64,000 nt of DNA from NCBI GenBank assembly GCA_000237975.1, contig CP003179.1, forward strand, positions 1,364,001 through 1,428,000, given 5' to 3'. A program made the translations under genes and the position numbers. Source of the DNA: Sulfobacillus acidophilus DSM 10332. Lineage in GTDB: Bacteria; Bacillota; Sulfobacillia; Sulfobacillales; Sulfobacillaceae. Numbering within the stretch: the first letter of the stretch is position 1; every line of letters starts with the position of its first letter. The notes under the pieces were generated by a model, which worked only from the letters and a program-made list of their open reading frames with translations, made no database searches and was not told the origin of the DNA. Shown piece by piece: positions 42,942 to 44,337 of the stretch.

Positions 42942-43046
42942 ATCGACCCTCGGAAACGAAAAACCCGCAAGGCCTTGGGCCATGTGCGGGTGAAATTTGG
43001 TGGAGACGAGGGGAATCGAACCTCTGACCTCTAGAGTGCGATTCTA
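42942..43046. repeat. Direct repeat copy 1: truncated tRNA-Ala 3' part plus terminator
   Basis: 105 bp nearly identical to 44208-44310. It holds the tRNA-Ala terminator hairpin and the 3' half of the gene (42998-43046, - strand sense) up to the anticodon loop, after which the sequence diverges. The T-stem has acquired a mismatch, so this copy cannot give a functional tRNA. Confidence 0.85.
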
Positions 43047-44207
43047 ACTTACCGTGCCATCACGTGCCGATGTTGCCCATGACGGGTACAACATGACATC
43101 TGTGATAGCGCCGAATTGTTACAAATGGTCCCGTGTGATGGGTTGTCCCAAGCTTACGGGGACCTGGGGTCACTTATGGCACCCTTTGTGGGTCCCCATT
43201 TTCGGCGGTTAAAAATCGACGGGCAGGCCACATCGGGACTCGTTATAGCCTGGGGGACATTGTGATCCGGGACCAGATGCTCGTCCTGAATTCCCTATTG
43301 CACCGAATGCAAGATGGAAGCATATTGGTATGGGTGGATGATGTAGGCACCGGGGGCCGTCGGGCCAAGGTAAGCGCCGGGTTCCCTACAATCTGATTGA
43401 GGTCGTGTGCGTTATAAGATACATAATAATATGTAATATCCCTACAACGCGGACGGCTCATACGATGCATGCGGCTCAATGAAACGCTCGTTATGGAACA
43501 CTTACCGCCAGATTAAACCGGCCAGAAAGGTAGGGGCTATGCTGGTGCTTCGTCGTCGATATTGGGTGGCCTGGGTAAGGTAGCGTGTCACGTATCGGTA
43601 TCAGCGATGGCCCATATACCCAATATGCATCTTACGTTAACTTTGAGACCGATTGGTAGACATTTTCTTTGAATGGATCCGACGTGACTCGTTGGACAAC
43701 GTGGGAGTTACCTGACCCCCAATTCCCCGACGAGGACTAATTCCACGATGTGGCGAACGAGGGATATTATGGGGATGTGCCAAGATCTATGAATGCCATT
43801 AACGTCGGGTTCCCGTCCACGGAGGAATATAATAGTTAGACGTATTACCACACGAAAGTCTCAAGACCCGATCGGAACCCGGAGAGGCCCCTAAGAAGGC
43901 CGTCGGCTCGTCCTCGGCTAGCGCCACCCGGTTGTTCCAAAAGCGTCCTCTTGCACGCATAACTGGTCGGGAAATTAATACCGGGTGGCCATCATCCGGT
44001 ATATTGTTAGGATTCTCGGGCATTACTAACGGTGCGGTCAATATAAGACGGGCCCTTATTGACCCGTTTAGGTGTCTTGTTTCCACTCGGTAAGGCGGTC
44101 GGAGGAGCCGGCAAGCACCCGCGATATCCGGGCGCTGCGTGGCATCATCACGGTTTTCATCTCACCATATCCAATCCCGCAAAGGTTCGGACCGTGTTTC
44201 GTCACCC
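43047..44207. other. 1.16-kb non-coding, decayed region between the repeats
   Basis: No intact gene. The region contains an inverted repeat (43070-43094), a protein-like frame ending at a stop near 43396 (GDIVIRDQMLVLNSLLHRMQ) and a second decayed frame listed separately. Base composition is more even and AT-richer than in neighbouring genes. It looks like the remnant of inserted DNA. Confidence 0.6.
43588..43890 (+). pseudogene. Decayed coding sequence with three in-frame stops
   Basis: One + frame stays protein-like for about 100 codons but is broken by TAG 43657, TAA 43738 and TAG 43837. Segments read GISDGPYTQYASYVNFETDW, TFSLNGSDVTRWTTWELPDP and FHDVANEGYYGDVPRSMNAI. The Tyr/Asn/Trp-rich character suggests an exported protein. 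I do not recognise the family. Stops at three separate places argue for decay, not recoding. Confidence 0.4.
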
Positions 44208-44310
44208 ATCGACCCTCAGAAACGAAAAACCCGCAAGGCCTTGTGCCCTGCGGGTGAAAATTGGTGGAGACGAGGGGAGTCGAACCCCTGACCTCTAGAG
44301 TGCGATTCTA
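44208..44310. repeat. Direct repeat copy 2, within the intact tRNA-Ala locus
   Basis: 103 bp matching 42942-43046 with a handful of differences. It covers the region beyond the terminator, the terminator itself and the tRNA up to its anticodon loop; the 5' half of the tRNA (44311-44337) is outside the repeat. Confidence 0.85.
44225..44255 (-). terminator. Intrinsic terminator of tRNA-Ala
   Basis: Read on the - strand: ACCCGC and AGG pair with CCT and GCGGGT (one bulged T), followed by TTTTCGTTT. It lies six bases after the encoded CCA of the tRNA gene. Confidence 0.85.
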
Positions 44311-44337
44311 GCGCTCTCCCAACTGAGCTACGCCCCC
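44262..44337 (-). tRNA. tRNA-Ala(CGC)
   Basis: A 76-nt cloverleaf with encoded CCA. Acceptor GGGGGCG pairs with CGTCTCC and includes the G3-U70 pair that identifies alanine tRNAs. The D arm is GCTC/GAGC, the anticodon stem CTAGA/TCTAG with loop ATCGCAC giving anticodon CGC, and the T arm AGGGG/CCCCT with loop TTCGACT. It is transcribed from a consensus promoter and ends at a strong terminator. Confidence 0.95.

Follow-up and report, generated by a model that had tools for sequence, protein, structure and literature searches.

A displaced, decaying 3' copy of tRNA-Ala(CGC) in Sulfobacillus acidophilus DSM 10332: a probable relic of tRNA-targeted integration

Downstream of the intact tRNA-Ala(CGC) gene of Sulfobacillus acidophilus DSM 10332 lies a second, truncated copy of the 3' part of the same gene, in direct orientation, and decayed DNA separates the two. 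The locus is a probable relic of tRNA-targeted integration and not an island. We read it as the decayed remnant of a site-specific integration at the anticodon stem-loop of this tRNA gene, a reading that we hold with more confidence than doubt. The stretch of DNA that was analysed (the window) is 64,000 nucleotides long; the genome totals 3,557,831 bases in two contigs, of which the chromosome contig makes up 3,472,898. The features discussed are as follows, in window coordinates.

42773..42943, plus strand: broken small membrane-protein gene with an internal stop (paralogue L063:4684-5061)
42939..43046, minus strand: displaced truncated copy of the tRNA 3' part with a weakened terminator (attR if integration took place)
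43047..44204, no strand: decayed interval between the arms, 1158 bp
43592..43808, plus strand: fragments of a decayed paralogue of a 288-aa protein (intact copy at G000:C1:766116-766979 of the chromosome)
44205..44310, minus strand: proximal repeat arm (tRNA position 28 to the 3' end, terminator, flank)
44229..44255, minus strand: terminator-like hairpin of the intact tRNA, 11 pairs and then a T run
44262..44337, minus strand: intact tRNA-Ala(CGC), CCA encoded (ARAGORN)
44350..44378, minus strand: promoter-like site of tRNA-Ala(CGC), TTGACA-17-TATAAT, 12/12 (consensus match alone)
44655..45086, plus strand: mraZ-like gene, start of the division/cell-wall cluster, divergent from the tRNA

ARAGORN detected a single tRNA in the window, the tRNA-Ala(CGC), exactly where the initial annotation had placed it. 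Its hairpin showed a folding energy of −21.9 kcal/mol (z −6.3), and positions 51 and 59 of the tRNA keep the bases of the family alignment. The partial copy claimed by the same annotation is a real repeat and does span the terminator. The gapped alignment of the arms gave 108 columns at 92% identity with one 2-nt indel. The first ungapped block was 62 nt long at 95% (42985-43046 and 44249-44310), and the second 46 nt at 91% (42939-42984 and 44205-44250). The 15-nt anticodon-arm core occurred twice in the window and not once in 100 shuffles. For the claimed extent of 42942-43046, the end at 43046 held, and the start moved to 42939. The claimed boundary inside the anticodon loop was mistaken: the first base of the copy is tRNA position 28, second in the 5' strand of the anticodon stem, and the whole loop is present. 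From there the copy extends through the CCA end and the hairpin and then 24 nt beyond the hairpin.

The tRNA part of the copy differs from the intact gene at positions 51 and 59, and the change at position 51 breaks a T-stem pair of the usual cloverleaf. The hairpin of the copy is weaker (−18.4 kcal/mol, z −3.8). As the intact gene has the family bases at both positions, the displaced copy is the decaying one. Both arms carry the terminator and about 15 nt without counterpart in relatives, where similarity starts from query position 15 or later.

The 1.16 kb of decayed DNA described in the initial annotation was confirmed as 1158 bp with broken remnants of a known paralogue and no intact recognisable gene. 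The 288-aa paralogue is represented by three fragments (43592-43642, 43660-43776, and 43791-43808), and the gaps between them are shorter than in the intact paralogue, so pieces are missing. This family (L062:4117-4983; window 43592-43808) was found in 13 of the 34 family genomes with a patchy distribution, and several of its matches have internal stops. The protein family gave no Pfam or PHROG match, and the paralogue gave no plasmid match. The stop-free pieces of the interval, 31 with a length of 30 aa or more, were searched against Pfam with E values up to 0.1. None matched, and neither an integrase nor an identified phage family was detected. Three PHROGs without description matched one interval piece each (best E 0.0041, 0.046, and 0.094). 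The region 42750-44210 outside the repeat had no match among 40 related genomes. Since the interval outside the repeat matches none of those 40 genomes and is unlike the neighbouring parts of the window, it is extra DNA of this lineage.

Three specific sources of the interval were tried and rejected. A multi-copy IS does not fit, because the only matches of the own genome to 42750-44210 outside the repeat are two accessory-gene paralogues. No phage record matches 43040-44210. For a plasmid origin, the best 20 of 185 plasmid records match the tRNA stretch alone within 42000-45000.

In the proposed sequence of events, an element bearing its own tRNA 3' part would have recombined with tRNA-Ala(CGC) at the anticodon stem-loop, presumably by means of a tyrosine integrase. 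The incoming 3' part would have restored a working tRNA at 44262-44337, and the 3' part and terminator of the host would have been displaced by about 1.26 kb to 42939-43046. Most of the element, with any integrase it carried, may have been lost later, leaving the 1.16 kb of decayed accessory DNA. We infer the integrase, the element, its loss, and the identity of the original copy.

Several observations count in favour of integration. The 3' fragment lies downstream in the same orientation, contains the CCA end, and has its boundary in the anticodon stem. The intact gene has a consensus promoter-like site and a terminator, and the copy has the broken T-stem pair and the weaker hairpin. A displaced copy of the same tRNA in a relative (G019, below) also counts for it. 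Other observations count against it. The interval is only 1.2 kb and holds no integrase or identified phage family, the repeat spans the terminator and about 15 nt extra, beyond what is seen in G019, and its outer end lies at the point where the membrane-protein gene breaks off, which integration alone leaves unexplained. Among integrating elements, att identities can reach about 100 bp or more, so repeat length alone is no bar to integration. The suggestion of mobile-element integration in the initial annotation thus gains from the layout and the G019 copy, and loses from the absent integrase and a size below 2 kb.

Searches for an integrase and for a source of the att site gave negative results. 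No integrase of the kind pointed to in the initial annotation lies in the interval, and the nearest PF00589 match on the chromosome is about 200 kb from the site. Around the own integrases of the genome, 11 loci (of 19 PF00589 matches), each 3.1-3.6 kb, contained no tRNA. On the tRNA contigs of the family draft genomes, no integrase was present among the matches listed. A 49-nt attP pattern had no match in the viral contigs. The 32-nt attP pattern had three viral-contig matches, which are irrelevant, as all are full tRNA-Ala(TGC) genes followed by tRNA-Pro.

The family set comprised 34 genomes, and that of DSM 10332 is the sole one of its genus. The tRNA with its flank, used as a query, matched in 34 of 34. 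Among the matches listed, only two stop before the 5' part of the tRNA, the copy described here and one in G019. A 27-nt pattern of the tRNA 3' end, allowing up to three mismatches, was matched in 31 of 34 genomes; it occurs at three places only here and in G019, and at one or two in the others, the pattern being blind to shorter remnants and to loci missing from draft genomes. A second strain, TPY, is given in the available part of its description as 99.0% identical to DSM 10332 within aligned segments (PMC3558970).

In G019, the first base of the copy is tRNA position 24; the copy lies about 0.7 kb from mraZ and faces that gene. The full tRNA of G019 is on a separate contig, where its 3' end faces the contig edge 0.66 kb away. 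In G048, one contig carries both the tRNA and mraZ, with the tRNA pointing towards mraZ. Between G048 and the full G019 tRNA, 105 bp agree at 95%, made up of 19 nt of 5' flank, the tRNA itself, and 9 nt beyond it, and a colinear stretch 2.5-3 kb upstream is also common to both. With the G019 copy, G048 shares 54 bp (position 24 to one base past the CCA) and then the mraZ region, and the 0.6 kb between the copy and the mraZ region has no match to G048. After the CCA, the G019 copy continues with a family-like terminator and the full G019 tRNA with other sequence. This layout would be the one expected of a filled integration site if the contigs are ordered as we suppose. About 30 nt ahead of the G019 copy lies the end of a multi-copy, IS-like sequence. 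With the contig order inferred and this IS-like sequence so near, a rearrangement by other means is possible in G019.

The main rival to integration is an error of replication or repair, such as a template switch or a patch insertion, that pasted 108 bp at a distance of 1.26 kb and deleted the end of the membrane-protein gene, with no mobile element involved. We regard this as a possible but rather doubtful explanation. The membrane-protein gene resembles its paralogue of 125 residues only up to residue 78, and the similarity stops less than 5 nt or at most 5 nt from the repeat start, so the outer end of the repeat falls at the break in the gene, as a copying accident would have it. The same terminator and flank on both arms, with about 15 nt of it absent from relatives, and the fact that no integrase remains also speak for such an accident. 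It leaves unexplained the boundary in the anticodon stem and the similar copy in G019. The missing end of the gene, furthermore, left no convincing trace in 38000-47000 (best E 0.007, near 46.2 kb), although decay could hide such a trace.

The paralogue of the membrane protein has no Pfam match. Besides the broken membrane-protein gene, positions 40252-42943 of the window hold a gene resembling serine proteases (PHROG protease match) and two small ORFs that match no family. This run sits between a permease-like gene shared with relatives, which we named by sequence impression, and the tRNA. It is possibly part of a wider variable region.

Duplication was an alternative in the initial annotation. 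In the form of a tandem duplication with one end in the tRNA and later decay, we find it improbable. The arms are direct repeats, as this explanation needs, but under it the interval should look like the DNA to the left of the distal copy, and no resemblance was found. The interval compared with 30000-42938 and 44338-64000 gave a best E of 0.11 in blastn and 0.47 in tblastx, while the repeat is still at 92%, and the repeat finder gave no second long pair. A tandem duplication survives only as a 108-bp duplication with a later insertion exactly at the junction. The other alternative named there, recombination with another tRNA-Ala of the genome, is very improbable, because the tRNA-Ala-like matches at 1244.3 and 1244.7 kb that might serve as donors (49 nt at 88% and 42 nt at 81%) lie within the tRNA alone, and the neighbouring arm is the sole place in the genome that matches the terminator and flank.

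The gene at 44655-45086 is presumably mraZ, a name based on synteny. Of the loci with both genes, the one in the window and 16 others have the tRNA directed away from mraZ, and six (G006, G015, G020, G041, G043, and G048) have it directed towards mraZ, each contig being counted once in the subset of the 34 family genomes that was read. This count omits G019 (truncated copy), G023 (155 kb apart), G007 (different contigs), G022 and G026 (no mraZ match on the stretch), and L129 (no tRNA). The small inversion of the tRNA seems to have happened more than once. In the loci of the six genomes concerned (L047, L048, L056, L198, L199, and L201), which belong to three genera, the tRNA-Ala(CGC) facing mraZ lies 0.5 to 1.3 kb upstream.

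Phage-like genes were noted near the tRNA of some relatives. Holin-like proteins are encoded near it in G006, G013, and G015, and endolysin-like ones in G013 (GH25) and G022. Genes of these two kinds in the four relatives are at L047:6655-7101, L048:7148-7606, L049:4083-5344, and L050:4004-4834. The holin-like and endolysin-like genes near the tRNA are perhaps prophage remnants. In the one-contig genome G023, tRNA-Ala(CGC) and mraZ are 155 kb apart (G023:C1:2043960-2199685), and the surroundings of its mraZ (L196) showed no displaced copy.

Two lineages with displaced copies, six flipped tRNAs, and nearby holin/endolysin genes are the basis for a tentative further reading. The tRNA-Ala(CGC)/mraZ junction might be a recurrent rearrangement hotspot in the Sulfobacillus family, which we consider conceivable and somewhat short of likely. 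If so, the edge of the cell-division cluster would have seen repeated arrivals of phages or islands.

Integration at this tRNA, if true, would add one more relic to the large class of tRNA-targeted insertions, and would suggest that in relatives of Sulfobacillus the tRNA-Ala(CGC) beside the division cluster serves as an insertion site. It would also show that 3' fragments of this kind can outlast their element and so be missed by filters that require an integrase. The finding is an ordinary one, a common type of genome scar, and alone it has no wider consequence. Among the literature matches listed for Sulfobacillus genomic islands and tRNA-Ala, no title describes the site, which weakly suggests, at title level, that it was previously unreported.

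The available part of the Islander paper (PMC4383910) gives as signature a regenerated tRNA gene and a displaced end fragment in the same orientation. It counts 3' fragments in 3760 of 3919 islands and an anticodon-centred site in 2083, and it applies a length filter of 2 to 200 kb. Unlike the islands described there, our site has no integrase inside or overlapping the candidate, measures about 1.26 kb from arm to arm, below that filter, and has a repeat that also spans the terminator. Like them, it has a 3' fragment downstream of the tRNA gene, co-oriented with it, which reaches the tRNA end and is not internal, and a boundary that fits the anticodon type. The available part of PMC9897764 describes tRNA gene fragments from integrating elements in 20 Thermococcaceae genomes. 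Those cases are archaeal, whereas our site is bacterial and its element is not recognisable. Here too, the fragment is a partial, non-functional duplication of a tRNA gene, and integration is named there as the cause of such fragments.
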